Shown in pieces: positions 1,624-15,789 of a stretch of DNA of 64,000 nucleotides. Below the pieces are notes generated by a model. The model searched no databases. It saw nothing but the letters and a program-made list of their open reading frames with translations, and was not told the origin of the DNA. The stretch spans positions 1-64,000 of the forward strand of contig CANJRI010000002.1 of the NCBI GenBank assembly GCA_947476555.1. Direction: 5' to 3'. The number at the start of each line of letters is the position of its first letter. Position 1 is the first letter of the stretch. Origin of the DNA: Caulobacteraceae bacterium. Lineage in GTDB: Bacteria; Pseudomonadota; Alphaproteobacteria; Caulobacterales; Caulobacteraceae. The position numbers and the translations under genes were made by a program.

Positions 1624-2379
1624 GTGACGCCGGAAAGAGCCATCATCCTGAGCGCGGGCCAGGGCAAACGCCTGCTGCCGCTCACCGAGGACCGGCCCAA
1701 GTGCCTCCTCGACCTGTCAGGCCGTAGCCTGCTCGCCTGGCAGCTCATGCACCTGGAACGCGCGGGCCTGCAGGAGGCGGTGGTGGTCACCGGCTTCCGG
1801 CACGAGGCGGTGGAGGCGGAAATCGCCCAGCTGGACCTCAAGATGCCCGTCCGCCTGGTGTTCAACCCATTCTACGCCCTGGCCGACAACCTGGCCTCCA
1901 CCTGGGTGGTGCGGGGGGAATTCGACCGCGAGGTGCTGCTGATCAACGGCGACACCCTGTTCGAGCAGGCGGTGGCCGAGCGGATGCTGGCGGCTCCCGA
2001 GGCGGAGATCACGGTCGGGATCGACCGCAAGACCGCCTACGACACCGACGACATGAAGGTGCTGACCGACGGGGACCGGCTGCTGGCCATCGGCAAGACC
2101 ATCGAGGCCTATGACGCCGAGTCGATCGGTTTCCTGCGGTTCTCCGCGGACGGCGCTGCCAAGTTCGCCGCGCGCGGCGAGATGATCCTGCGCAAGGCCG
2201 AGGGGCTTCGGCGCTGGTACCTGTCGGTGATCGACGAGCTGGCGAACTCGGGCGTGGACGTGCGCGTCCAGTCGCTGGAGGGCCTGGAGTGGGGGGAGAT
2301 GGATTTCCCCCACGACGTCGACAACCTGAACCGGATCAGCCGGCCCTGGGCCGAGCAGCTGGCCGTCGTCAGGGCCTGA
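1624..2379 (+). CDS. LicC-like sugar/alcohol-phosphate nucleotidyltransferase
   Basis: AIILSAGQGKRLLPLTEDRPKCLLDLSGRSLL nucleotidyltransferase motif, LINGDTLF and WGEMDFPHDVDNL C-terminal motif. Likely GTG start at 1624; ORF is open from 1582. Confidence 0.8.
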   Translation: MTPERAIILSAGQGKRLLPLTEDRPKCLLDLSGRSLLAWQLMHLERAGLQEAVVVTGFRHEAVEAEIAQLDLKMPVRLVFNPFYALADNLASTWVVRGEFDREVLLINGDTLFEQAVAERMLAAPEAEITVGIDRKTAYDTDDMKVLTDGDRLLAIGKTIEAYDAESIGFLRFSADGAAKFAARGEMILRKAEGLRRWYLSVIDELANSGVDVRVQSLEGLEWGEMDFPHDVDNLNRISRPWAEQLAVVRA

Positions 2380-3112
2380 GGCCCCGCACGAGGTCGAGAT
2401 CGGCGGGCTTGTCCACGTCCACCGCCGCCAGGCCATAGGGGCTTTCCACCACCGCAGCGGAGACCCCGGCCATGCGGCCCATGCGGGCGGCAGCTTCCTT
2501 CAGACCCAGCCGGCCGGTCAGGTAGCGCAGCAGGATGCCGGCGCCGAGGGTGCGGGCCATCCGCCACGGACGCTTGCGGTCGGCCTCGACGCGCCGCCAC
2601 AGGTCGACCACCGCCAGGGACGCGGGGGTGGCGAGGTAGAAGAGATTGCAGCCCGACCAGTGGCCGTCGGCCAGCTTCAGCCAGGTACGGGCGGTTCCGG
2701 GGGCCGCGGCCTCGACCACCTCGCGGCGGGCGGCCAGGACGGCAGCCTGGGCGCCGGCCGGGATGCCGGCGAGGAATCCGGTCACCCACTCAGGGCGCAG
2801 CAGGGCGTGGTCGGCGGTGGTGACCAGCAGCGGCGTGCCCAGCGCCTCGGCGGCGCGGGCGACGCTGAGGCTGGGACCGGCCTCGGCGGGCAGGACCTTG
2901 GCGCCGAGAGCCTGGGCCGCGGCGGTCACGGCCGGGTCGGAGGCCGACACCGCGATGCGGTCCGCGCCGGCCGCGCGAAGGGCGTTCACCACCCGCTCAA
3001 GCAGGGTTCGATCCTCCAGGATTATCAGCGCCTTGTGCGAAACGCCGGCGTATTCGGCCACCGGATCGGGGCCGCCCCGTGAGCCCGCCAGGACCAGGGC
3101 GGAAAAGCTCAA
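2369..3112 (-). CDS. MobA-like NTP transferase family protein
   Basis: SALVLAGSRGGPDPVAEYAGVSHKALIILEDRTLLERVV N-terminus; VTTADHALL; DVDKPADLDLV C-terminus. Confidence 0.75.
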   Translation of the reverse strand: MSFSALVLAGSRGGPDPVAEYAGVSHKALIILEDRTLLERVVNALRAAGADRIAVSASDPAVTAAAQALGAKVLPAEAGPSLSVARAAEALGTPLLVTTADHALLRPEWVTGFLAGIPAGAQAAVLAARREVVEAAAPGTARTWLKLADGHWSGCNLFYLATPASLAVVDLWRRVEADRKRPWRMARTLGAGILLRYLTGRLGLKEAAARMGRMAGVSAAVVESPYGLAAVDVDKPADLDLVRGLRP

Positions 3113-4251
3113 GCCAGCGCCTTCTCATAGAGCCGGTAGGTCTTGTAGACCTTGGCGCCGCCGGCGTCGCAGATGCGGCGCATGGGCAGGTTGTCCTCCA
3201 GCACCCAGGACAGTTCGTAACGCTCGTAGCCGAGCCGGCGGGCGGCCTGGGCGGCGGCGTCGATGAGCAGGAACGGCAGGAGCTGGCCGCGCATGGCGCC
3301 GGCGAACTTTCGCCGCACGCCCATCAACGGGACGCGGCCGGTTTTGAGGCCCTTCACCTTCAGCCGCCAGAGCAGCTTGGCCCAGCCGAAGGGGAGCAGC
3401 TTGCCGTGCAGGTCGGCGATCGCCTCATTGACGTTGGGCAGGAGCACGATGAAGCCGGCGGTCTCGCCGTCGATCTCGGCGAAGAAGGCCAGGCGCGGAT
3501 CGATGACCGGCTTCATGGCGGTGGCGAGCTGCTTGGTCTCGGCCTCGGTGGTGGGGGTGAAGCCCCAGTTGCCCGACCAGGCGTCGTTGAGGATCTCGGT
3601 GAGGGTGCGGACCTCGGCCTCGAACCGCTTCATGTCGAGGGTGCGCAGGGTGACGCCCTCGGGCGGGCCTTTCCGGATGCGGCGCAGGATCGGGGCGGGC
3701 AGGTCGTCGGCGACGTTGCACTGGTAAGCGAAGACGTCCTTGGCCTTGGCGTAGCCCCGGGCCTCCAGCTGGGCGGCCGCATAGCGCGGGTCATGGCCCA
3801 TCATCACCATGGGCGGGGCCTCGAAGCCGTCGACCAGCAGGCCGACCTCCTCGTTGATGGAGAGGTTGAACGGACCGATGACGCGGGTGCGGCCGCGGGC
3901 GCGCAGCCACGCCTCGGCCTCGCGGGTGAGGGCGGCGAAGACCCGCGGGTCGTCCTCGGCGGCGATCATGCCGAAATGGCCGACGCCTTCGGCGGTCTGG
4001 GGGTTGAGCTGGTCGATCTGGGCGCTGATGCGGCCCACGTCCCGGCCGTCCTTCTCGGCCAGCCAGAGCTGGACCTCGGCGTGCTCGAAGAAGGGGTTGG
4101 TGCGGGGAGACAAGGCCTCCCGCCGTTCCATCAGCAAGGGCGGCACATAGGCCGCGTCTGCCGCGTTCAACCGCATCGGCACGCGAATGAACCGCTCGAG
4201 CTGGGCCGGTGTCTCCACCGGCGTGATTTTGATCCCCCCGGCCGGCATCAC
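3109..4251 (-). CDS. bcerS: GNAT-type acyltransferase, probable bacterial ceramide synthase
   Basis: 380-aa protein of the family often labelled GNAT or 'dATP pyrophosphohydrolase' (GGIKITPVETPAQLERFIRVPMRLN...GPFNLSINEEVGLLVDGFEAPPMVMMGH...YELSWVLEDNLPMRRICDAGGAKVYKTYRLYEK); synteny with spt/cerR/aasR matches the Caulobacter ceramide locus. Confidence 0.75.
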   Translation of the reverse strand: MMPAGGIKITPVETPAQLERFIRVPMRLNAADAAYVPPLLMERREALSPRTNPFFEHAEVQLWLAEKDGRDVGRISAQIDQLNPQTAEGVGHFGMIAAEDDPRVFAALTREAEAWLRARGRTRVIGPFNLSINEEVGLLVDGFEAPPMVMMGHDPRYAAAQLEARGYAKAKDVFAYQCNVADDLPAPILRRIRKGPPEGVTLRTLDMKRFEAEVRTLTEILNDAWSGNWGFTPTTEAETKQLATAMKPVIDPRLAFFAEIDGETAGFIVLLPNVNEAIADLHGKLLPFGWAKLLWRLKVKGLKTGRVPLMGVRRKFAGAMRGQLLPFLLIDAAAQAARRLGYERYELSWVLEDNLPMRRICDAGGAKVYKTYRLYEKALA

Positions 4252-5312
4252 CCCTCCATGTAAAGCAAGGCGGTCACCCCCAGGGCCGCGAACATCGCCG
4301 GCGCCGCCCAGGCGGCGAGGATGGCGGGGGCCGCGCCGTTCTCGCCGAGCGCGGTGAAAGCGCCGTCGAAGACCAGGAACAGCAAACCGCCGGTCAGGCA
4401 GAGCACCAGGACAGGGGCACCGCCACGGATGTTGGTTAGGGCCGCGGGCGCGGCCAGCAATAGCATCACCAGGCAGGCGGCGGGGGCCGCCCAGGCCCTC
4501 TGGAGCTGGGTGTCGTAGAAGGTCCGCGGCCGGACGGAAACGCCCCCCTGGACGGCCCGGCGGGCTTCGGCCGGGGTGACGGTCGGCTGACCGGCCCGCA
4601 GCATCTGCAGGTCCTCAGGGGTCAGCTTCACCCTCCAGTCCATCTCGTCGGCCGATCCGGTCTGGATGGCGTCCCGTTGGATGGTCTCGAACCGGGGGGC
4701 GATCAGCCGCCAGCGGCCGGTGTCGTAGACGGCGCTGTCGGCGTGGGTGCGCTGAGTGAGCCGGCCCGCAGCGTCGCGGCGATAGATGGTGAGCTTGCTC
4801 AGCGTGCGCCCGTCGGCCGAGGCCTCCCCGACCATCACCTCGTCGCCGACCCGGAAGGTGAGGATATCAGGCTTCTCGGCGTCGGCCTTGGCCTCGGCGG
4901 CCGGTTCGGTGGCCCGCCACCAGTCGGAGAGGGTCTGATCGGTCCGGGGCGCCACGGCCCCGCTGATGGTGAGCTGGACAACGGCCATCACCACCGCCGC
5001 CGGCAGGGCCATGAGGGTGATCTGATAGGCCGATACGCCGGTAGACCGCATGGCCGTGACCGCGCTCTCCTGGGCCAGCTTGGCGAAGGCGAAGAGAGAC
5101 CCGGTGAGCACCGCCAGGGGCGCCGCCTGCTCGACGAGACGCGGCATCCGCAGGAGCGCGTAGTAGGCGATCCCGCCGCCGCCCAGTTCGCGGTCGAGGA
5201 TGTCGGTGGTCACTTCGAGGAGGTCGAGGATCTGCAGGATGCCCACCAGCACCAGCAGCGAGCCCAGGATGCGGCCGGCCATCAGGGCCGCGAGATAGGA
5301 GCAAAGCTTCAC
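4248..5312 (-). CDS. lptG: LptG-family permease (LptF/LptG)
   Basis: N-terminal TM segments (YLAALMAGRILGSLLVLVGILQILDLLE), soluble middle domain, C-terminal TM segments; follows lptF with overlapping stop/start. Confidence 0.85.
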   Translation of the reverse strand: MKLCSYLAALMAGRILGSLLVLVGILQILDLLEVTTDILDRELGGGGIAYYALLRMPRLVEQAAPLAVLTGSLFAFAKLAQESAVTAMRSTGVSAYQITLMALPAAVVMAVVQLTISGAVAPRTDQTLSDWWRATEPAAEAKADAEKPDILTFRVGDEVMVGEASADGRTLSKLTIYRRDAAGRLTQRTHADSAVYDTGRWRLIAPRFETIQRDAIQTGSADEMDWRVKLTPEDLQMLRAGQPTVTPAEARRAVQGGVSVRPRTFYDTQLQRAWAAPAACLVMLLLAAPAALTNIRGGAPVLVLCLTGGLLFLVFDGAFTALGENGAAPAILAAWAAPAMFAALGVTALLYMEG

Positions 5313-6508
5313 GACGAGGCCGCCTGCGCCACGGACGCGCGGGCGCGGAAGCGGGCGATGAAGTTCGCCACGTGCTCCATGGCCCGGCCAATGGGAGTCT
5401 CTCCGGGACGTTTGCGGCTGGTGACGAAGACCAACACGCAGATGCCGGCGAAGACGAGGTAAGGCAGACCGACGCTGAGCTCCGGCGCGGCGCGGCCGGT
5501 CACGGCCATGCTCTGGCCGAACTGGACCATGTGATGGAAGCCGAGCAGCAGCAGGCCGCCGACGATGATGCCCGGCGCCCGCCCGCTGCGTTTGGCCGCC
5601 AGACCCAGCGGGAGCGCCAGCAGGGGCAGCAGTGGCAGGGCGAAGGCGCGCGCCAGCCGGCCATAGAGTTCGGCGAGCAGGGTGGTGCGGGGAATGACGG
5701 AGTGGGGGCTGCGGGCCTGGGCGGCCAGTTCGAGGAGGGTGAACTCGCGTTCGTCCCCGCCCCGGGCGCGCAGCAGCTGGGCCGGGCCGCTGAGCGGAAC
5801 CTGCATCGTCAGGTCGTCGAAGGTGACCATCTCCGGCTCGCCGCGGGCGTTGGCGCGCAACTGCTGGCCGTTCTTCAGCAGCAACACCACGTTCACGCCG
5901 TCGGCGGTGCGCCGCACCTCGGCCATTTCCGCTGACGTCACCTCTTCGCGGCCCGAAGGGGCGAGCCGGCGGATGAAGATGCGGCTCAGACGCTGGCCAG
6001 CGGCGTCGGCCTCGTCCGTGGTCATGGTGAGGCCGTCACTGGGGGAGATGATGACACCCTCGGGCACGGCGCCGCTCCAGCCCGCGTTCTGCGCCGCGTG
6101 CAGGACAGCGCGGTAGGCGTAGCGGCTGTAGGGCTGGAGGAAGCCGAAGACGATCAGGCTCACGGCCATCAGGGCGGCCGCCAGGCAAAGGTAGGGCGCG
6201 ACGACCCGGGAAAGCGAGACGCCGGCCGCCAGCAGGGCGTCGATCTCGGAGGCCTCGTTCATCCGGTTCACGACGATCACCAGGGCGATGAAGAAGGCCG
6301 CGGGCAGGGTGAGGCCGAGGTAGTGGGGAACCAGGTTCACCGCGAGTTGGGCCACGAAGCCGAACCGGTCCGAAGAGGCGGAAAGCAGGTCGAGAAGGCG
6401 CAGGATGCGCTCGAGCAACAGCGCGATCAGGGTGACGCCCGTGGCGCCGACCAGCGGCCAGAAGGCCAGTCGCAGCAGGTATCGGTCGACGAGGATCATG
6501 CGGCCCAC
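5309..6508 (-). CDS. lptF: LptF-family permease (LptF/LptG)
   Basis: MILVDRYLLRLAFWPLVGATGVTLIALLLERILRLLDLL; six TM segments with a periplasmic domain. True start probably ATG at 6499. Confidence 0.85.
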   Translation of the reverse strand: MGRMILVDRYLLRLAFWPLVGATGVTLIALLLERILRLLDLLSASSDRFGFVAQLAVNLVPHYLGLTLPAAFFIALVIVVNRMNEASEIDALLAAGVSLSRVVAPYLCLAAALMAVSLIVFGFLQPYSRYAYRAVLHAAQNAGWSGAVPEGVIISPSDGLTMTTDEADAAGQRLSRIFIRRLAPSGREEVTSAEMAEVRRTADGVNVVLLLKNGQQLRANARGEPEMVTFDDLTMQVPLSGPAQLLRARGGDEREFTLLELAAQARSPHSVIPRTTLLAELYGRLARAFALPLLPLLALPLGLAAKRSGRAPGIIVGGLLLLGFHHMVQFGQSMAVTGRAAPELSVGLPYLVFAGICVLVFVTSRKRPGETPIGRAMEHVANFIARFRARASVAQAASS

Positions 6509-6927
6509 CGGGCCGCGAACTCGGCGGCGAGGGCGGGAGCGGCTTCACCGAGGTCGACGTGGGCCCGGAGGTTGGGCTGACCCGGCCAGCCGGCGTCGAC
6601 GAAGCTGCGCCCGTCGTGGCCGCGCTCACCGGCGTAGCGGGGGATGACGTGGAAGTGGACGTCCGGGTCCACCATCATGAGCATGAGGTAGTTGATCTTT
6701 TCGTAGCGGACGAGGTCCGACAGCAGCCGCTCGATCCCCGCGACGGCGACCTGGAGATCGGCGAAGGCCGCGGCGCTGAGGTCCGCGAAGGCGCGCGCCT
6801 CATCCTTGCAGACCAACACCAGGGACCCGAATGTCGGCTGTTGCGGGCGCAGCAGCACCAGCCATTGGTCCGTCTCGGCGACCAGGGTGCGCGGGTAGCC
6901 GAATTTCTGGGCGGTGGAATTGGTCAC
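6496..6927 (-). CDS. HIT family protein
   Basis: DPDVHFHVIPRY (HxHxxP histidine-triad variant). Confidence 0.85.
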   Translation of the reverse strand: MTNSTAQKFGYPRTLVAETDQWLVLLRPQQPTFGSLVLVCKDEARAFADLSAAAFADLQVAVAGIERLLSDLVRYEKINYLMLMMVDPDVHFHVIPRYAGERGHDGRSFVDAGWPGQPNLRAHVDLGEAAPALAAEFAARWAA

Positions 6928-7081
6928 GGAGGGTCCAAGCGAGCGGCGCGCGGATCATAGGGATGGGTCCGTGTCCATGAAAGGGCGAAGGCCGTCCAGG
7001 ACAATGGTATCAGGGGCCTTGATTTGGAGTCGGGCGAGGCCGCGCTTGCAGGAAGCTGAGACGAACGCCGGCCCCGCCGGG

Positions 7082-8149
7082 ATGATCCTGGGCGACGGAG
7101 CGGTCCGGCTCTGGGGGATGAGCGCACGCGAACGCCTTGCCCGGACCTATCGCCGGGCCGGCGTGAGCCTGGACGGGGCCGGGGCGACCACGGTGCTGAC
7201 CCTCGGGGACTGGGTCTATGACGAGGTGCTGGTGGCGACCTTGGCGAAGCGCCCGGGGACCGTGCTGGTGACCGCCGAGGGTCGGGCGGTGGCGGCCCAT
7301 GTGGCGAGCGAAGCCGCGGCCTTGGCGGCCGTGAACCTGAAGGCCGGGCGCGCGCCGGCGGGCCTGAAGCTGCTGTCGCCGGACGAGCTGGCCTACAACC
7401 ACGCCCTGCGCAAACGCTCGACGCCGGTGCTGACCGAGTTGACCACGGACAACGTGCGCGCGGTCGAGGCGCGGCTGTTCGGAGGCTCCTACAAGGGCGT
7501 GACGGACCTGGTGACCAAGTACGTCTGGCCGGTTCCGGCGCGGATCGTCACCCGCTGGTGCGCCGTCCTGCGGATGACGCCGAACCAGGTGACCTTCGTC
7601 GGATTCCTGCTCGTGCTGGCGGCGTTCTGGCTGTTCTGGCGGGGCGAGTTCGGCTGGGGGCTGGCCTGCGCCTGGCTGATGACCTTCCTGGACACCGTGG
7701 ACGGCAAGCTGGCGCGGGTGACCCTGACCTCCTCCAAGATCGGCAACGCCTTCGATCACGGGATCGACCTGATCCATCCGCCGTTCTGGTGGTGGGCCTG
7801 GTGGGTCGGCCTGTTCGTGGTGAGCCAGCCTCCCCCCTGGGCGGAGGCGGTGCTGTTGGTGACGGTGGGGGGATATGTGCTGCAGCGGGTGCAGGAGGGG
7901 ATCTTCCTCGGGCTCTTCAGGGTGGAGATCCACGCCTGGCGGCGGTTCGACAGCTTCTTCCGGCTGATCACCACGCGGCGGAACCCGAACCTGATCCTCC
8001 TCACCCTGGCCTGGCTGGTCGGGCGGCCGGATGTGGGCATGGTCCTGGTCGCCGCCTGGACGGTGGTGAGCCTGGCGGTGCACCTCGTGCAGATCCTGCA
8101 GGCCCTGGCCGCGCCCAAGGGGCAGGTCGTCTCCTGGCTGTCGCGATGA
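7082..8149 (+). CDS. cpgA: CDP-alcohol phosphatidyltransferase family protein with an N-terminal extension (sphingolipid head-group transferase candidate)
   Basis: Exact CDP-AP motif D(x2)DG(x2)AR(x8)G(x3)D(x3)D: DTVDGKLARVTLTSSKIGNAFDHGID; followed by TM segments. Start codon uncertain (7082 or upstream). Symbol by synteny with Caulobacter cpg genes; not certain. Confidence 0.75.
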   Translation: MILGDGAVRLWGMSARERLARTYRRAGVSLDGAGATTVLTLGDWVYDEVLVATLAKRPGTVLVTAEGRAVAAHVASEAAALAAVNLKAGRAPAGLKLLSPDELAYNHALRKRSTPVLTELTTDNVRAVEARLFGGSYKGVTDLVTKYVWPVPARIVTRWCAVLRMTPNQVTFVGFLLVLAAFWLFWRGEFGWGLACAWLMTFLDTVDGKLARVTLTSSKIGNAFDHGIDLIHPPFWWWAWWVGLFVVSQPPPWAEAVLLVTVGGYVLQRVQEGIFLGLFRVEIHAWRRFDSFFRLITTRRNPNLILLTLAWLVGRPDVGMVLVAAWTVVSLAVHLVQILQALAAPKGQVVSWLSR

Positions 8150-9057
8150 TCCGCGCCGGGGTCATCAGGAACTTGAAGAGCTACCGCAACCAGGACGGGC
8201 CGCCGGCCACGGTCCCGGCCGGCGTGCTGGAGGTGAAGGCCGGAGAGCCCGACGAACTCAACGAGACCCTGGCCTGGTTCGCCAAGTCCGGCGTCGAGCT
8301 GGTGGTGATCGACGGTGGCGATGGGACCATCCGCGACGTGCTCTCGCGCCTACCGCCGCCCTATGTGAAAAACCCGCCGCGCCTGGCTGTGCTGCCCCGG
8401 GGCAAGACCAATGCGCTCGCGCTGGACCTGGGCATGAGCGGGGACGCGCCGCTGGAATCGATCCTTTCGGCCGCGGCGGCCGGGCGGACCAAGACGCGGC
8501 CCTGCCTGGAAATCGTCCGGGCAGGCGCGGCGACGCCGGACCTGCGGGGCTTCCTGTTCGGCCTGGGGGCTTTCGTGCGCGGCACAGAACTGGCCCAGAA
8601 GACCCACGGGTTGGGGTTCTTCAACAACGCGGCGATCGGGCTGACCATCCTGGGGGCGGCGGCGCGCACCCTGGCCGGCGGGCCTGACGATCCTTGGCGG
8701 CGTGGCGAGCCGGGAAGCCTGACGCTGGGCGAGGAGGCCACGGAGACGCGGGCCTGGTTCCTGGCGGTCGCCTCGACCCTCAAGCGATTTCCTCTCGGAT
8801 TGAAACCCTATGGCCCGCCGCACGAGGGGCTGAAGGTGCTGACCATCCATGCGCCGCCGCCAAAGCTCCCGACCGCCGCAGCGCTGATCTTCGCGGGCTC
8901 GGAGGCGTCGTGGCTGGAGAAGAAGGGCTATCGGCGCAGGGACGTGACCCGGCTCGGGGTCGAGATGGAAGGCAGTTTCGTCCTGGATGGCGAGCTGTTC
9001 CCGACCGGTGAGCTGACGGTGCGGCAGGGCCCCGAACTGGAGTTCGTGATCGCGTGA
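8146..9057 (+). CDS. cpgB: LCB5/diacylglycerol-kinase-type lipid kinase, probable ceramide kinase
   Basis: VVIDGGDGTIRDVLSRL and AVLPRGKTNALALDLG catalytic motifs; ATGA overlap with the upstream gene. Confidence 0.8.
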   Translation: MIRAGVIRNLKSYRNQDGPPATVPAGVLEVKAGEPDELNETLAWFAKSGVELVVIDGGDGTIRDVLSRLPPPYVKNPPRLAVLPRGKTNALALDLGMSGDAPLESILSAAAAGRTKTRPCLEIVRAGAATPDLRGFLFGLGAFVRGTELAQKTHGLGFFNNAAIGLTILGAAARTLAGGPDDPWRRGEPGSLTLGEEATETRAWFLAVASTLKRFPLGLKPYGPPHEGLKVLTIHAPPPKLPTAAALIFAGSEASWLEKKGYRRRDVTRLGVEMEGSFVLDGELFPTGELTVRQGPELEFVIA

Positions 9058-9932
9058 GGGGGCTTAAGGACGCGATCGCGGCCGAGCTCGCGGCCGGGCC
9101 GGATGACGCGGCGGCCGCGTTCGGGGCGAGCCTGGCAGACCCGGAGCGGGATGCGGCGATCCTCTACTACGGCTCGACGCTGCGGACCGGCGACCTGTCG
9201 GGGATGCTGGACTTCTATCGGCTGACGCGGCGGCCGCACCGCAGGGGCCTTCGCGGGCTGGTGGAGCGCGTGCTGTGGCCCGAAGTCAGCTACCACGAGG
9301 CGGGGAAGCTCCGGGCCAAGGTGGCGACCTTGCCCCTGGCGACGTTCCGGCGCGCGGCCGAAGGGCGGACGCTCGACACCACCATCTGGACCCGGTTCGT
9401 GCAGCCGGCGCGGATCGTGTGGGCGGCGGACGAGGCCGCGCGGGCCGAGGCCGTGGCGGCGGTGGCCGCCGCGGTGCGAACCGCCAGCCGCTATGCGGCG
9501 GCGGCGGGCCCGGCCGAAGGATCGGCCAAGGATTTCTGGTTGGCGCTGTTTCGCAAAACCTATGCCGCCGAGTTCCGTGTGGAGTCGGCCGGACGCGCCG
9601 ACGAGGTGATGGGGCCCAACGCGGCGCGGTTCGCCAGATTACTCCCCATGGCTTGGGACGAGGCCGGCGTGGACTTCGCCCAGGTGGGGCTGCTTCGGCC
9701 GAGGCGGCGCGGCCTGCCCAGGTGGTGGTTGCGGAGCGCCCTGGGCAAGCCGCTGAACCTCGCCCGACTGGCCAAGGCGGCCTTCACCTTCGAGGGCGCG
9801 GCGCGCTATGCGGCTTGGAAGATCGAACGGCACACCGGGCTGGCGATCGAGGTCACGCCCTGGCGCGAGCGTCACCCGATCCTGGCGGCGCCGGGGGTGC
9901 TGTGGAAGTTGAGCCGGCGGAAGAAGCCCTAG
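9054..9932 (+). CDS. cpgC: Tam41/Mmp37-like putative cytidylyltransferase (CDP-ceramide or CDP-DAG synthase candidate)
   Basis: YYGSTLRTGDLSGMLDFYRLTR then VLWPEVSYHE...LRAKVATLPLATFRRAAEGRTLDTTIWTRFVQPARIVWA, which parallels the Tam41 YGS...MLDF, ...KYGVIS..., ...L.GR...PV pattern; 4-bp overlap with the lipid kinase. Symbol by synteny only. Confidence 0.6.
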   Translation: MRGLKDAIAAELAAGPDDAAAAFGASLADPERDAAILYYGSTLRTGDLSGMLDFYRLTRRPHRRGLRGLVERVLWPEVSYHEAGKLRAKVATLPLATFRRAAEGRTLDTTIWTRFVQPARIVWAADEAARAEAVAAVAAAVRTASRYAAAAGPAEGSAKDFWLALFRKTYAAEFRVESAGRADEVMGPNAARFARLLPMAWDEAGVDFAQVGLLRPRRRGLPRWWLRSALGKPLNLARLAKAAFTFEGAARYAAWKIERHTGLAIEVTPWRERHPILAAPGVLWKLSRRKKP

Positions 9933-11143
9933 GCGCTCTTGCGCGCCCGCTTAGGCAGCAGGCCGAATTCCTGGCCAAGCTGGTCGAAGACCGCGATGAC
10001 GGCGTCGATCTGCTCGAAGGTGTGGGCGGCGCTGACGCTGGAGCGGAGCAACGGCCGGTTGTCCGGGGTCGCCGGCGGCAGGGCCAGGTTCAGGTAGACG
10101 CCGTTGGCCAGGAGCGCGTTCCACATGGCGATGGCCATGCTGGTCTCGGGCATCACCACGGCGACGATCGGGCTGGCCTTGGGGCCGGTGGTGTAGCCGA
10201 GCCGTTGCAGGCCGCTCCAGAGCCGCTGGGCGTTGGCCTCGAGCTTGCCGCGCAGGGAGCCGTCCTGCTCCAGCCGCTCCAGGGCGGTCAGGGTGGAGGC
10301 GACGATGGCGGGCGGCAGCGAAGCGGTGAACATGTAGGGGCGGCTGACCACGCGCAGGAGGTCGAAGTCGTCCACGTCGGCGACGCAGAAGCCGCCGATG
10401 GCGCCCAGGGACTTGGAGAAGGTGCCGACGATGAAATCGACGTCGGCCTCGACGCCGGCCGCTTCGGCCAGGCCGCGGCCCTTTTCGCCGAGCACGCCCA
10501 TGGAGTGAGCCTCGTCGACCAGGAGGTAGGCCCCGGTCTCCTTCTTGACGGCGACGATCTCCTTCAGCGGAGCGACGTCGCCCATCATGGAATAGATGCC
10601 CTCGACCACGATCAGGCGCTCGCCGGGCTGACCTTCCAGGCGCTTGAGGCGCTTGTAGAGGTCGTCGGGGTCGTTGTGGCGGAAGCGGATGACCTCGGAC
10701 TGGCAGAGCCGGGCGCCGTCGTAGATCGAGGCGTGGCTGTCGGCGTCGAGGATCAAGTGGTCCCCGCGTCCGACGAGGGCGGACAGCACGCCGAGATTGG
10801 CCTGGTAGCCGGTCGTGAAGACCATGGCGTGCTTGCGGCCATAGAAGCGGGCCAGGGCCGTCTCCATGGCCATGTGGCCGCCGAAGGTGCCATTGGCGAT
10901 CCGCGAGCCGGTGGTGCCGGTGCCCCATTTCCGGACGGCCGCGGCCGAAGCCTCGACGCAGGCCGGGTCGAACGTCAGGCCCAGGTAGTTGTTGGTGCCG
11001 AGGAGGATGACCTTGCGGCCATCGAGCTGGCCTTCCGTAGGGGAAAGCACCGCCTCGAAGCGGACGTTGAAGGGATCGACGCCGGCGGCGCGGATGCCTT
11101 CATAGGCGTCGCGATACGACGCGTGCTTGTCGAGCAGACCCAT
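9929..11143 (-). CDS. spt: serine palmitoyltransferase (alpha-oxoamine synthase family)
   Basis: NNYLGLTFDP, GTGTTGSRIANGTFGGHMAME, VDEAHSMGVLGEKGRG, PLP-lysine motif GTFSKSLGAIGG. Confidence 0.9.
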   Translation of the reverse strand: MGLLDKHASYRDAYEGIRAAGVDPFNVRFEAVLSPTEGQLDGRKVILLGTNNYLGLTFDPACVEASAAAVRKWGTGTTGSRIANGTFGGHMAMETALARFYGRKHAMVFTTGYQANLGVLSALVGRGDHLILDADSHASIYDGARLCQSEVIRFRHNDPDDLYKRLKRLEGQPGERLIVVEGIYSMMGDVAPLKEIVAVKKETGAYLLVDEAHSMGVLGEKGRGLAEAAGVEADVDFIVGTFSKSLGAIGGFCVADVDDFDLLRVVSRPYMFTASLPPAIVASTLTALERLEQDGSLRGKLEANAQRLWSGLQRLGYTTGPKASPIVAVVMPETSMAIAMWNALLANGVYLNLALPPATPDNRPLLRSSVSAAHTFEQIDAVIAVFDQLGQEFGLLPKRARKSA

Positions 11144-11145
11144 CC

Positions 11146-11400
11146 TTAAGCCTTTACCCGCAGCTTGTTGATCAGTTCGGAGAGGTCGCCAACCGTCTCC
11201 ACGGTGGCCAGCCGATCGAGAGGGATCGACAGGTCGAATCGATCTTCAAGCTCCATCACGATGTTCATGAGCGCAAGCGAATCGACGGCGAGGTCCCGGG
11301 CGATGTGAGTGGCAGGCGTGACATCGACCGCGCGCCCGAGCACGGTTTCCGCCGCCTTCGCGACTTCACGGACGGTTAGATCCGTCGCGAGTTCGACCAT
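11146..11400 (-). CDS. acpR: acyl carrier protein of the ceramide pathway
   Basis: 84 aa with phosphopantetheine serine motif DLAVDSLALMNIVMELEDRFDLSIP; adjacent to spt. Confidence 0.8.
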   Translation of the reverse strand: MVELATDLTVREVAKAAETVLGRAVDVTPATHIARDLAVDSLALMNIVMELEDRFDLSIPLDRLATVETVGDLSELINKLRVKA

Positions 11401-11506
11401 GTACGCAGGCCCCCATAGCCCCAAGACTCTAATACTAATTCCGGTACGTAACCGCGTTAGGCCCGGATTTCCACCTTTGACGCATGTGGGGGTCACAAAA
11501 GGGCAG

Positions 11507-12421
11507 TCAATGTTTCATCCAGGACGCACTTCGATACCAGGCCACGGTGTGCGCGAAACCCTTCGGCAGGGGGTAGGCGCAGGGCGGCAGGCCCGGCGCT
11601 CGTTCCCCGGCGCCGAGCGTCCAATCGGGGTGCAGGAGCTCGCGGGTCTTGCCTGAGGTCAGCATAGGGTTTCCCCCGAGGGCGGCGGCCAAGTCGCCCA
11701 GGCCCCCGACACCCCTTACGACACCGGCGGGAATCGCCATGAGGCGGGGGGATCGGCCGCACGCCGCCGCCGCCTCGGTCATCACTTCCGACCAGGAATA
11801 GCCATCGGGGCGGTCGTCGCTGAGGGCCCAGATTCCGCCCGTGGGACGGGCGGCCAGGGCGGCGATCTGCCGCGCGGCGTCCTCCACGTGGATCACCGCC
11901 AGCCGGGCGCCGGGCGACAGGAGCGGGAGAATCGGGCTGACCGCCGCTGCCTGGAAAAGCGGCAGAAGCTCGCGGTCGGCCGGGCCGTAGATGGCGGGCG
12001 GGCGGACCACGGTGAGGCGGGCGCCGAGAACCTCGGCCATCGCCGTCTCCGCTGCGCGCTTGGAGGCGGCGTAGGGCGACAGGCCGGGCTCGCGGGCGGC
12101 GAGGCTGGAGATCAGCATCACAGGCCCGCGGGCCGCCTCCGCCAGGCGCCGGGCTCCATCGACGTTCACCCGCTGGAATTCCCCCGCGATGCGGGCTTTC
12201 ACGATGGCCGCGCCGTGGATCACCACCTGGGCGTCCGCGCACAGGGCCGCGAGGGCCGCCGGATCGTGGAGATCGCCTTGGATCACCTCCGGATCGGCGT
12301 CGTCCCAGCGCGCCTCGCGGCGGGCCAGGACCCGCAGGCGCCAGCCATCCTGGGACAGGGCGCGGACGAGCTGGCGGCCCAGAAAGCCGGTGGCGCCGGT
12401 GACCGCCGCCAGCGGCTTCAG
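11507..12421 (-). CDS. cerR: NAD-dependent epimerase/dehydratase, CerR-like
   Basis: LKPLAAVTGATGFLGRQLVRALSQDGWRLRVLARREARWDDADPEVIQGDLHDPAAL...YAASKRAAE; Rossmann motif plus YxxxK. The upstream end needs a CTG (12419-12421) or other non-standard start; the track ORF starts at an internal GTG (12286). Confidence 0.75.
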   Translation of the reverse strand: MKPLAAVTGATGFLGRQLVRALSQDGWRLRVLARREARWDDADPEVIQGDLHDPAALAALCADAQVVIHGAAIVKARIAGEFQRVNVDGARRLAEAARGPVMLISSLAAREPGLSPYAASKRAAETAMAEVLGARLTVVRPPAIYGPADRELLPLFQAAAVSPILPLLSPGARLAVIHVEDAARQIAALAARPTGGIWALSDDRPDGYSWSEVMTEAAAACGRSPRLMAIPAGVVRGVGGLGDLAAALGGNPMLTSGKTRELLHPDWTLGAGERAPGLPPCAYPLPKGFAHTVAWYRSASWMKH

Positions 12422-14127
12422 ACGGGCTCCTCGGCCTTGAAGGCGCCGGACAGGTAGAGGGCGCGGGCCTTTGAGCGGGAGAGCTTGCCGGAGGAGGTCT
12501 GCGGCAGGGCATGGGGCGGCACCAGCTCCACCCGGGGCTCCACGCCGTGCCGGGCGCGCAGGAGGGCTGCGACGTCGGTGGCCAGGTCCTGACGGGCCTT
12601 GGGATCGCTGAGGCGGGCCTGGACGAGGACGACGAGCTGCTCAGCCTCTTCCTGGTCCACGGAGAAGGCGGCGACGTCGCCGGAGCGCAGGCGCTCGATC
12701 TCGGTCTCGGCCGTCCATTCCAGATCCTGCGGCCAGACATTGCGGCCATTGAGGAGGATGAGGTCCTTGGCGCGGCCGGTGGGGGTGATCTCGCCCTCGA
12801 CCATGAAGCCGAGGTCGCCAGTGTCGAGCCAGCCGTCGGCGGAGAGCACCCGGGCGGTGGCCTCGGGCTCGTCGAAGTAGCCCTTCATCAGGCTGGGGCC
12901 CCTGGCGAAGATGCGGCCCATCCGGCGTTCCGCAAGCACCTGGCCGTCGTCGCCGCGGACCTGGAGCTCGTGGCCCGGGAAGACGACGCCGCAACGGACG
13001 AAGGCGCGGCTGCGGCCGTCCTGGCCCGGCGTCACCTCTCCGGAGCGTTCCATGCGGCCGACGTCGACGTCGTCGAAGCGAAGGCCGACGCCCAGCGGAG
13101 CCATGGAGAGGCCCAAGGTGGCCTCGGCCATGCCGTAGGAAGCGACGAAGGCGCGGGCGTCGAAGCCGCGCGGGCCGAAGGCCTCGGCGAAGGCCTGCAG
13201 CGGGGCGGCGCGAACCATGTCGCCGCCGCAGCCAGCGATGCGCCAGCAGGAGAGGTCGAGGTCCTCGCGGGCGGCCTCGGCCCGGCGGGCGCAGAGCTCG
13301 TAGCCGAAGGTGGGGCTGTAGGCGATGGTGGCCCGGTAGCGGTCCATCAGGTCGAGCCAGAGCAGCGGCCGGCGGACGAAGGCGCCGGTTGGCATCATGT
13401 CGATGGTCATCTGGCAGGCGAGGGGGCTGAGCAGGAACCCGACCAGGCCCATGTCGTGATAGAGCGGCAGCCAGGTGTGCGAGCGGTCGTGCGGGGTGAC
13501 CTGGAGACCGTCGCGGGTGCTGGCCGTGGCGTTGGCCATCAGGGCGGCGTGGGTGCAGAGCACGCCCGTCGGATTGCGGGTCGAGCCGGAGGAGAACTGG
13601 ACGTAGCAGGGCTCGTCCGGCGTGGGCGCTGGGAGGTCGCGGAGCGGGGCGTCGGGCAGGTCGGCGGTCCGACCCACAAGGCGCACCCCGGCGGCCTGGC
13701 CGGCGTCACGCAGCCAGGGCTGAAGGGCTTCCGGTCCGAAGGCGGCGGCTGCCCGGGCCGAGGCCAGCATCCGGCCGATCTGCTCCACATAGGCCTCGCG
13801 GCCGCCCAGCGGCGCCGGGAGGGGCAGGGGGGCGGGGGTCAGGCGCGCGTACTGGCAGGCGAAGAAGGCGACGATGAATTCGGCGTCGGAGTCGGCCACC
13901 AGGCCAACCCGGTCGTGGGGTTCCAGGCCGGCGGCCAGCAAGCGGACGGCAAGTTTCCGGGCGCGGTCGCGCAGGTCTGCGTAGGACAGGGCCTCGACGA
14001 GCTCGCCGCGCAGCCCATGCAGGTTGATGCCGGTCGGCCCGGCCGCGGCGAAGTCGAGCGTCTCGGTCAGGGTGGCGAAGCCGCCGTGACGGAACGGCCG
14101 ATCCGGAGCTGTGGGTAGAGGGGTCAA
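12418..14127 (-). CDS. aasR: fatty acyl-AMP ligase (acyl-ACP synthetase of the ceramide pathway)
   Basis: YVQFSSGSTRNPTGVLCTH (AMP-binding P-loop), ASYGMAEATLGLS, GWLDTGDLGFM...GRAKDLILLNGRNVWPQDLEWTAE. Confidence 0.85.
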   Translation of the reverse strand: MTPLPTAPDRPFRHGGFATLTETLDFAAAGPTGINLHGLRGELVEALSYADLRDRARKLAVRLLAAGLEPHDRVGLVADSDAEFIVAFFACQYARLTPAPLPLPAPLGGREAYVEQIGRMLASARAAAAFGPEALQPWLRDAGQAAGVRLVGRTADLPDAPLRDLPAPTPDEPCYVQFSSGSTRNPTGVLCTHAALMANATASTRDGLQVTPHDRSHTWLPLYHDMGLVGFLLSPLACQMTIDMMPTGAFVRRPLLWLDLMDRYRATIAYSPTFGYELCARRAEAAREDLDLSCWRIAGCGGDMVRAAPLQAFAEAFGPRGFDARAFVASYGMAEATLGLSMAPLGVGLRFDDVDVGRMERSGEVTPGQDGRSRAFVRCGVVFPGHELQVRGDDGQVLAERRMGRIFARGPSLMKGYFDEPEATARVLSADGWLDTGDLGFMVEGEITPTGRAKDLILLNGRNVWPQDLEWTAETEIERLRSGDVAAFSVDQEEAEQLVVLVQARLSDPKARQDLATDVAALLRARHGVEPRVELVPPHALPQTSSGKLSRSKARALYLSGAFKAEEPV

Positions 14128-15497
14128 ACGTCGCCTTTCAAACCATCACCGCCGCCGGCGGACCTATCGCGCGCCCGGCGATTCCCACTCATGCGCAGGA
14201 TGAACCACAGCATGCCCAGGGCAAGGGCTGTCGCGGCCCCCACCAGGCCCGCGCCGGCTCCTGTAAGGCCGAAAGCCTCGATGAGGAAGGGCAATGAAAT
14301 CAGGAAGGTCACCCCGACCGCAAGATGGACCCGCACCGCGGCGCCGGGTTTTCCGAGGGAAACCAGCATCGGCTCCAGGGGCAGGGCGAAGATGGCCACC
14401 ACGGCTGCGGCGACCTGCCACGTCATGACGCTAGCGGCTGGAGCGAAGGCCTCGCCCATCACCAGGGTGAGGAGCGGACCGCCGGCCAGGACCGCGACGA
14501 GCAGGACGAGGAGGCCGACGCCGCCGGCCAGGACGCCCACGCGCTTGACCAGCCGCCACATGTCGTCGTGGCGCTCCTCGACGCGCAGGCGGGCCAGTTC
14601 GGGATAGAGCGCCGGCACCAGGAGTTTAGCCGGCTTGGCGATGGCGTCGGCGATCTGCCGGCCGATCCGCCAGAAGGCCGCCGCGCCGGGACCGACCATC
14701 ATCCCCACCACCAGGGTGACGACGTGGGTGAGGGCCACTTCCAGGGTGGCCGCGAGGTTGGTGTTCCAGGCGAAGCGCCAGATCCCGGGCAGCCCCTGGG
14801 TGAAGGGCCCGTTCCAGGCGAAACCCTCCAGCAGCCGACGCGTATGGAGTTCACGCCACGCGGCCGCCAGCAGATAGGCGTAGGCGACCACGCTGCCGAG
14901 CGCCCAGGCGGCCAGGAAGCTCTCCAGGCCCCCATGCAGCCACCAGGCCACGCCGCTGCCGATCAGGCGGACGAGGGAGACCAGCGCCGCCTGGTTGGCC
15001 ATGACGTCGAAGCGGTCGAACAGGCGCAGCAGGCCGATCGGCGTGGCCGAGACCATGAACACCAGGCTGAGCATGTAGAGCGCGGCGGCCGGCGCGGCGT
15101 CCGCGCCCCAGCCCAGGGAGCCGGAAAAGGCGAAGGCCCCGATCACCCCGAGGGCCATGCCCAGCAGGGTCGAGGCGATGTCCAGGGCGAGGGTGAAGCG
15201 AAGGACCTGCTGGAAGCGGGGCGTGTCGCCCGCGGCCAGGGGACGGGCGCCGTACTGCAGGACGGTCTGCCAGGACTGGAACTTGACCACCTCGCCCAGG
15301 AACAGGGCGAAGGCGTGGATCAGGACCAGGACGCCCATCTCCGACACGCCGAGCGCGCGGGCGACCACGGCCATGTAGGCGAGGCCGAGGATGGCGTTGA
15401 TGGTGCGGCCGCCGAGCAGCATGCCGGCATTGGCCAGGACGCGCCTCAGGATCTCGCCGACTCCGCCGGCGTCCGGGGGCTCGCCCTTCTCGATCAT
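14124..15497 (-). CDS. oligosaccharide/lipid flippase (Wzx/MATE-like)
   Basis: 457 aa, multiple TM segments, GGRTINAILGLAYMAVVARALGVSEMGVLVLIHAFA; stop/start overlap with aasR. Confidence 0.75.
   Translation of the reverse strand: MIEKGEPPDAGGVGEILRRVLANAGMLLGGRTINAILGLAYMAVVARALGVSEMGVLVLIHAFALFLGEVVKFQSWQTVLQYGARPLAAGDTPRFQQVLRFTLALDIASTLLGMALGVIGAFAFSGSLGWGADAAPAAALYMLSLVFMVSATPIGLLRLFDRFDVMANQAALVSLVRLIGSGVAWWLHGGLESFLAAWALGSVVAYAYLLAAAWRELHTRRLLEGFAWNGPFTQGLPGIWRFAWNTNLAATLEVALTHVVTLVVGMMVGPGAAAFWRIGRQIADAIAKPAKLLVPALYPELARLRVEERHDDMWRLVKRVGVLAGGVGLLVLLVAVLAGGPLLTLVMGEAFAPAASVMTWQVAAAVVAIFALPLEPMLVSLGKPGAAVRVHLAVGVTFLISLPFLIEAFGLTGAGAGLVGAATALALGMLWFILRMSGNRRARDRSAGGGDGLKGDV

Positions 15498-15713: not shown

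Positions 15714-15789
<76 letters not shown>

Follow-up and report, generated by a model that had tools for sequence, protein, structure and literature searches.

The closest described relatives of the gene pair examined here are CC_1156 and CC_1155 of Caulobacter crescentus, which were named LptF2 and LptG2 in a 2024 study (PMC11324152), together with LptC2 (CC_1168). These proteins were proposed to carry phosphosphingolipids to the outer membrane; transport was not investigated in that study, which stated that the route of bacterial sphingolipids to the outer membrane is unknown. The same study found orthologs in several alpha-, beta-, and gammaproteobacteria, suggested horizontal transfer, and reported a cofitness of 0.60 between mutants in CC_1156 (lptF2) and a mutant in CC_1159, a gene of CPG2 synthesis. 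In the open-licence literature, which leaves subscription papers mostly outside coverage, we found no later work testing sphingolipid transport by LptF2/LptG2. The transport idea is already in print for Caulobacter, and the cross-genome support described below we did not find published.

The pair considered here lies in a stretch of 64,000 nucleotides (the window) from a Caulobacteraceae bacterium (assembly GCA_947476555.1, contig CANJRI010000002.1, positions 1 to 64,000). It belongs to the same protein family as the canonical LptB2FGC exporter, which is known from Escherichia coli and Shigella and encoded at the pepA-lptFG-lptD locus in Alphaproteobacteria, but it falls in a separate clade and occupies a different locus. 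It shares its clade with the pair of Caulobacter vibrioides and its cluster neighbors (HIT, cerS, cpgD, CDP-alcohol transferase, kinase, spt, and flippase) with LptF2/LptG2 of C. crescentus.

Gene Neighborhood and Family Identity

The HIT, lptF2, lptG2, bcerS, and cpgD-like genes form a tightly coupled operon on the minus strand (window positions 6927–2369; table 1) in which neighboring genes overlap by 1–4 bp. The original prediction placed an LptF/LptG pair overlapping a ceramide synthase gene at 3109–6927, and these coordinates are right save for small start corrections, the interval ending at 6927 since the HIT gene of the same run was included. The most probable start codon of lptF2 is the ATG at 6499 (MILVDRYLLR, compared with the canonical MRLIDRYLLR) and not the GTG at 6508, so that lptF2 and the HIT gene overlap by 4 bp (ATGA). 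For bcerS, the ATG at 4248, located behind a GGAGGGG motif, is a more likely start than the GTG at 4251. The predicted co-directional 4-bp overlaps hold at 5309–5312 (lptF2/lptG2, GTGA) and 3109–3112 (bcerS/cpgD-like, TTGA), whereas the one proposed at 4248–4251 is more likely a 1-bp lptG2/bcerS overlap (TGATG).

Table 1. Genes of the sphingolipid cluster in the window.
Feature	Coordinates	Strand	Basis
cpgD-like phosphoglycerate cytidylyltransferase (NTPase of the original prediction)	2369..3112	-	NTP_transf_3, E 3.1e-16; cluster position kept in named loci
bcerS, ortholog of CC_1154 (cerS), bacterial ceramide synthase, GNAT-like	3109..4248	-	Acetyltransf_1 match
lptG2, sphingolipid-type LptG permease (predicted)	4248..5312	-	354 aa; PF03739 and type-2 clade
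lptF2, sphingolipid-type LptF permease (predicted)	5309..6499	-	396 aa, ATG start at 6499; PF03739 and type-2 clade
HIT-domain protein at the head of the operon, CC_1157 position	6496..6927	-	PF01230, E 2.6e-4
CDP-alcohol phosphatidyltransferase-like gene	6914..8149	+	PF01066, E 1.6e-11
Ceramide-kinase-like gene, DAGK catalytic domain	8140..9057	+	PF00781, E 1.4e-12
Cluster gene without Pfam match	9054..9932	+	Conserved kinase neighbor
spt, serine palmitoyltransferase-like	9929..11143	-	Aminotran_1_2, E 2.2e-53; same position as Caulobacter spt
Acyl carrier protein, ceramide reductase-like, and acyl-ACP synthetase-like genes (acpR, cerR, aasR positions)	11146..14127 (11146-11496, 11507-12286, 12418-14127)	-	Three ORFs; cerR: NAD-dependent epimerase match; order as in Caulobacter (PMC11324152)
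Flippase-like polysaccharide-biosynthesis membrane protein, CC_1166 position	14124..15497	-	PF01943, E 2.3e-11

Both permeases are full-length members of the LptF_LptG family (PF03739; E-values of 9.5e-64 for LptF2 and 6.9e-69 for LptG2, over profile positions 1–351 and 2–351 of 353), and the best solved-structure matches are LptF chains for the upstream product and LptG chains for the downstream product. The ceramide synthase role of bcerS is taken from that of CC_1154 (PMC11324152); the gene product is 64–77% identical to the Caulobacter and Phenylobacterium proteins of the same cluster, the nearest (up to 77%) being from Phenylobacterium. CpgD activity has been described (PMC12275187), and the CDP-alcohol phosphatidyltransferase-like gene is probably a member of the head-group pathway. 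The HIT gene (CC_1157) was judged probably unrelated in Caulobacter (PMC11324152), and it is conserved ahead of lptF2 in most named bcerS loci. The flippase-like protein is 66% identical to its positional counterpart in Phenylobacterium; a tRNA-Lys gene (ctt; 15714–15789) lies just beyond this end of the cluster.

A Canonical LptFG Pair and the Other Lpt Components

The original prediction proposed that the window pair is a second LptFG paralog and that another should be sought near pepA or lptD. In the window genome, an assembly of 2.56 Mb with 94.8% completeness, four PF03739 matches exceed the cut-off: two are the window pair, and the other two form a canonical lptFG on contig C8, located between pepA and lptD-surA-pdxA-ksgA. 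Its presence excludes the possibility that the window pair is the only one of the genome. The window pair itself sits between the HIT gene and bcerS and not at the pepA/lptD place, which the C8 pair occupies; identities are 28% between LptF2 and LptF1 and 25% between LptG2 and LptG1.

LptB, LptC, and LptD were each detected once. One LptB is above the curated cut-off (contig C28), adjoined by LptC and LptA, and one LptD match and one LptC match were detected. A genome search with PF06835 gave no LptC, a false negative given that the ORF beside LptA-LptB matches LptC in hmmscan (5.7e-8). This is the sole LptC match of the genome, whereas the Caulobacter genomes G292 and G301 have two; the second LptC of Caulobacter (LptC2, CC_1168) is encoded next to the cluster. 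A second LptC was not detected in the 94.8% complete window assembly; LptC2 is a Caulobacter feature and not a property of the whole sphingolipid-linked clade, and given the single LptC only the LptFG head is doubled in the window genome.

Linkage to Ceramide Synthase and Phylogeny

At least two LptFG-like ORFs are found in the fetched flank of 67 of 80 named bcerS loci, most commonly in the order HIT-lptF-lptG-bcerS-cpgD, showing that the adjacency is not due to chance. Where the distance to bcerS could be measured, it is at most 15 kb for 34 of 38 pairs (median 2.1 kb). Among the 21 genomes that lack lpxC and have a single pair, the pair is about 5 kb or less from bcerS in 20 and 24 kb away in one. 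In one LPS-less genome (G254; loci L074 and L075) there are two bcerS genes with an LptFG pair close to each.

A phylogeny of LptFG, which had been suggested as a check of the original prediction, separates two types with support of 99. The joint tree of LptF and LptG places 44 of the 46 sphingolipid-linked pairs in a single LptG group and a single LptF group (support of 99 for each), the LptF group also taking in two single rows from genomes with bcerS (L221 and L077), and in the concatenated tree a branch supported at 99 sets the 44 pairs apart from the rest. We refer to this clade, which is separate from the canonical alphaproteobacterial pairs, as type 2. It contains every pair of the LPS-less genomes with bcerS as well as LptF2 and LptG2 of the window (support of 99), whose closest rows are pairs from Phenylobacterium and Caulobacter sphingolipid loci. 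Beta- and gammaproteobacterial genomes with bcerS have a type-2 pair nested among the alphaproteobacterial ones and a canonical pair of their own. The remaining two sphingolipid-cluster pairs (G182, L062; G264, L072) group with beta/gamma canonical LptFG outside the type-2 clade, possibly reflecting a separate recruitment; a single clade of all 46 pairs is not rejected (p-AU of 0.65).

LptFG Copy Number across Alphaproteobacteria

We counted LptFG pairs in 290 alphaproteobacterial genomes, the window genome among them. The first count scored up to six candidates per genome, and scoring all candidates for 60 genomes gave the same counts. Two pairs are present in 16 of 18 genomes with both lpxC and bcerS, whereas nearly all of the 237 genomes with lpxC and without bcerS have one pair (two pairs in about 2 of 237; Fisher p of 2e-21 for genomes that are not phylogenetically independent). 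Exceptions in the latter set are a genome with 8% contamination (G106) and another (G257) with three matches each, two of those in G257 resembling pieces of one gene, and a genome (G015; L213) that has a very divergent second LptFG pair. Genomes with bcerS and without lpxC have exactly one pair in 21 of 26 cases, the others being one with a pair and a divergent single copy (G181), G254 with its two pairs, and three with none (G048, G206, and G267).

Contrasts within families agree in direction with the Fisher tests. In each of six families (f1, f13, f24, f37, f45, and f96), genomes with bcerS have two pairs and those without it have one, and in three others (f21, f59, and f69) LPS-less genomes with bcerS have a type-2 pair and LPS-containing genomes without it the canonical type. 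Two pairs are also present in all 12 of the named bcerS genomes tested, which include Burkholderiales and Nevskia. Copy number follows the sphingolipid and LPS genes in the way expected of a dedicated exporter.

The same counts bear on the idea that type-2 LptFG exports anionic outer-leaflet lipids broadly, either sphingolipid and LPS or other glycolipids. Type 2 is the only kind of pair in LPS-less genomes, so any other cargo of their Lpt system would need to pass through it, and G023 and G057, which carry both bcerS and LPS genes, have canonical-type LptFG only, which suggests that canonical LptFG may also carry sphingolipid. However, dual producers nearly always have two pairs (16 of 18, although two of them have a second pair that does not group with type 2), which argues for a division of labor, and we consider a broad cargo unlikely.

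LptFG in Genomes without LPS Genes

With lpxB as a second LPS marker beside lpxC, LptFG is retained in 22 of 25 genomes that lack both markers and have bcerS and in none of the five that lack all three genes (Fisher p of 4e-4, treating related genomes as independent). Four genomes without lpxC and bcerS that have LptFG (G042, G045, G102, and G252) were not counted as LPS-less given that lpxB is present, and G041 was excluded from the 25 for a weak lpxB match. All 22 genomes that keep LptFG have an LptD match and 21 have an LptB match; in the larger set defined by bcerS and the lack of lpxC, LptD is found in every LptFG-bearing genome and LptB in all except G146, where scoring covered 42 of 78 candidates. 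In one genome without lpxC and lpxB matches (G024; L231), an ORF just upstream of lptC-lptA-lptB resembles arabinose-5-phosphate isomerase, as named by eye from its translation.

Three genomes of one genus (G048, G206, and G267) have no match for LptFG, LptB, LptD, LpxC, or LpxB and carry the ceramide genes bcerS, spt, acp, cerR, and aasR (loci L078, L080, and L079, respectively), indicating that sphingolipid makers can be without Lpt. Ten ORFs neighboring bcerS in L078 and L079 include no transporter family; in both loci a metallophosphoesterase gene lies between spt and bcerS.

Conserved and Divergent Residues

In LptF, Glu84 of the coupling helix is invariant, the window protein included. 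The corresponding Glu88 of LptG (E. coli numbering) is kept in 93% of type-2 and 98% of canonical sequences, with alanine at this position in LptG2 of the window, and Arg301 of LptG is present in about 90%. The invariance of Glu84 and near invariance of Glu88 fit the use of the same LptB by both types, the alanine in LptG2 of the window being a point against it for this pair.

Contact positions were taken from PMC6744409, which covers the LPS contacts of Shigella, and from PMC5548808. At the K40/K41 positions of LptG, most canonical alphaproteobacterial sequences have arginine, whereas type 2 has mainly acidic or polar residues. In LptF, canonical sequences mostly have glutamine at position 30 and phenylalanine at position 292, compared with arginine or lysine and arginine, respectively, in type 2. 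We considered and rejected such residues as proof of a changed cargo, given that the LPS-contacting residues of Shigella are unconserved even in canonical alphaproteobacterial LptFG, whose LptG also differs, and that LptG K40E/K41E is tolerated (PMC5548808). These alignment differences are only suggestive with respect to cargo.

The conserved residues, the shared family, and the detection of one LptB, LptC, and LptD are also what would be expected if the window pair were a further LPS exporter, redundant or conditional, whose place in a sphingolipid locus is happenstance. This explanation is improbable: genomes without detectable lpxC or lpxB keep type 2 and not the canonical type, and almost every LPS maker that lacks bcerS has a single pair.

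A Proposed Sphingolipid Head on a Shared Lpt Bridge

A pair dedicated to sphingolipid is the simplest reading that accounts for how many pairs there are, where they lie, how they group, and their persistence in LPS-less genomes. We propose, with a probability of roughly 0.78, that LptF2-LptG2 is a second inner-membrane Lpt head specialized for sphingolipid that would act on a shared bridge. The sphingolipid delivery envisaged in the original prediction is supported by copy number, clade, and retention in LPS-less genomes, and the detection of just one LptB, LptD, and LptC in the genome agrees with the predicted delivery to a common bridge; we infer the cargo, the use of the common bridge, and the flipping step. 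In this model, ceramide phosphoglycerates would be synthesized at the inner membrane by the neighboring enzymes and reach the periplasmic leaflet, possibly via the flippase-like protein. LptF2G2, driven by the one LptB of the cell, would extract them and deliver them to a single LptC-LptA-LptD bridge that would also take LPS loaded by the canonical LptF1G1. A tie to the ceramide genes through inherited clustering alone, with no functional connection, would fit the nesting of beta/gamma pairs in the type-2 clade, which is consistent with whole-cluster transfer. It is nevertheless very improbable given that the linkage holds over many families and gene orders, that G254 has a pair for each bcerS gene, and that two genomes tie a pair of a different type to the cluster.

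Lpt is probably a two-headed machine, with one LptB, one LptC-A-D bridge, and two LptFG heads of different cargo, and LPS-less sphingolipid bacteria would run the whole system on sphingolipid alone, keeping just the sphingolipid head. With the window, the Caulobacter-type LptF2/LptG2 gain a member for which no LptC2 was detected. Because the number and type of LptFG pairs depend on the sphingolipid and LPS genes, what had been proposed from a few clusters becomes a prediction that is testable over many lineages, and the same dependence suggests why bacteria without LPS retain an LPS exporter.
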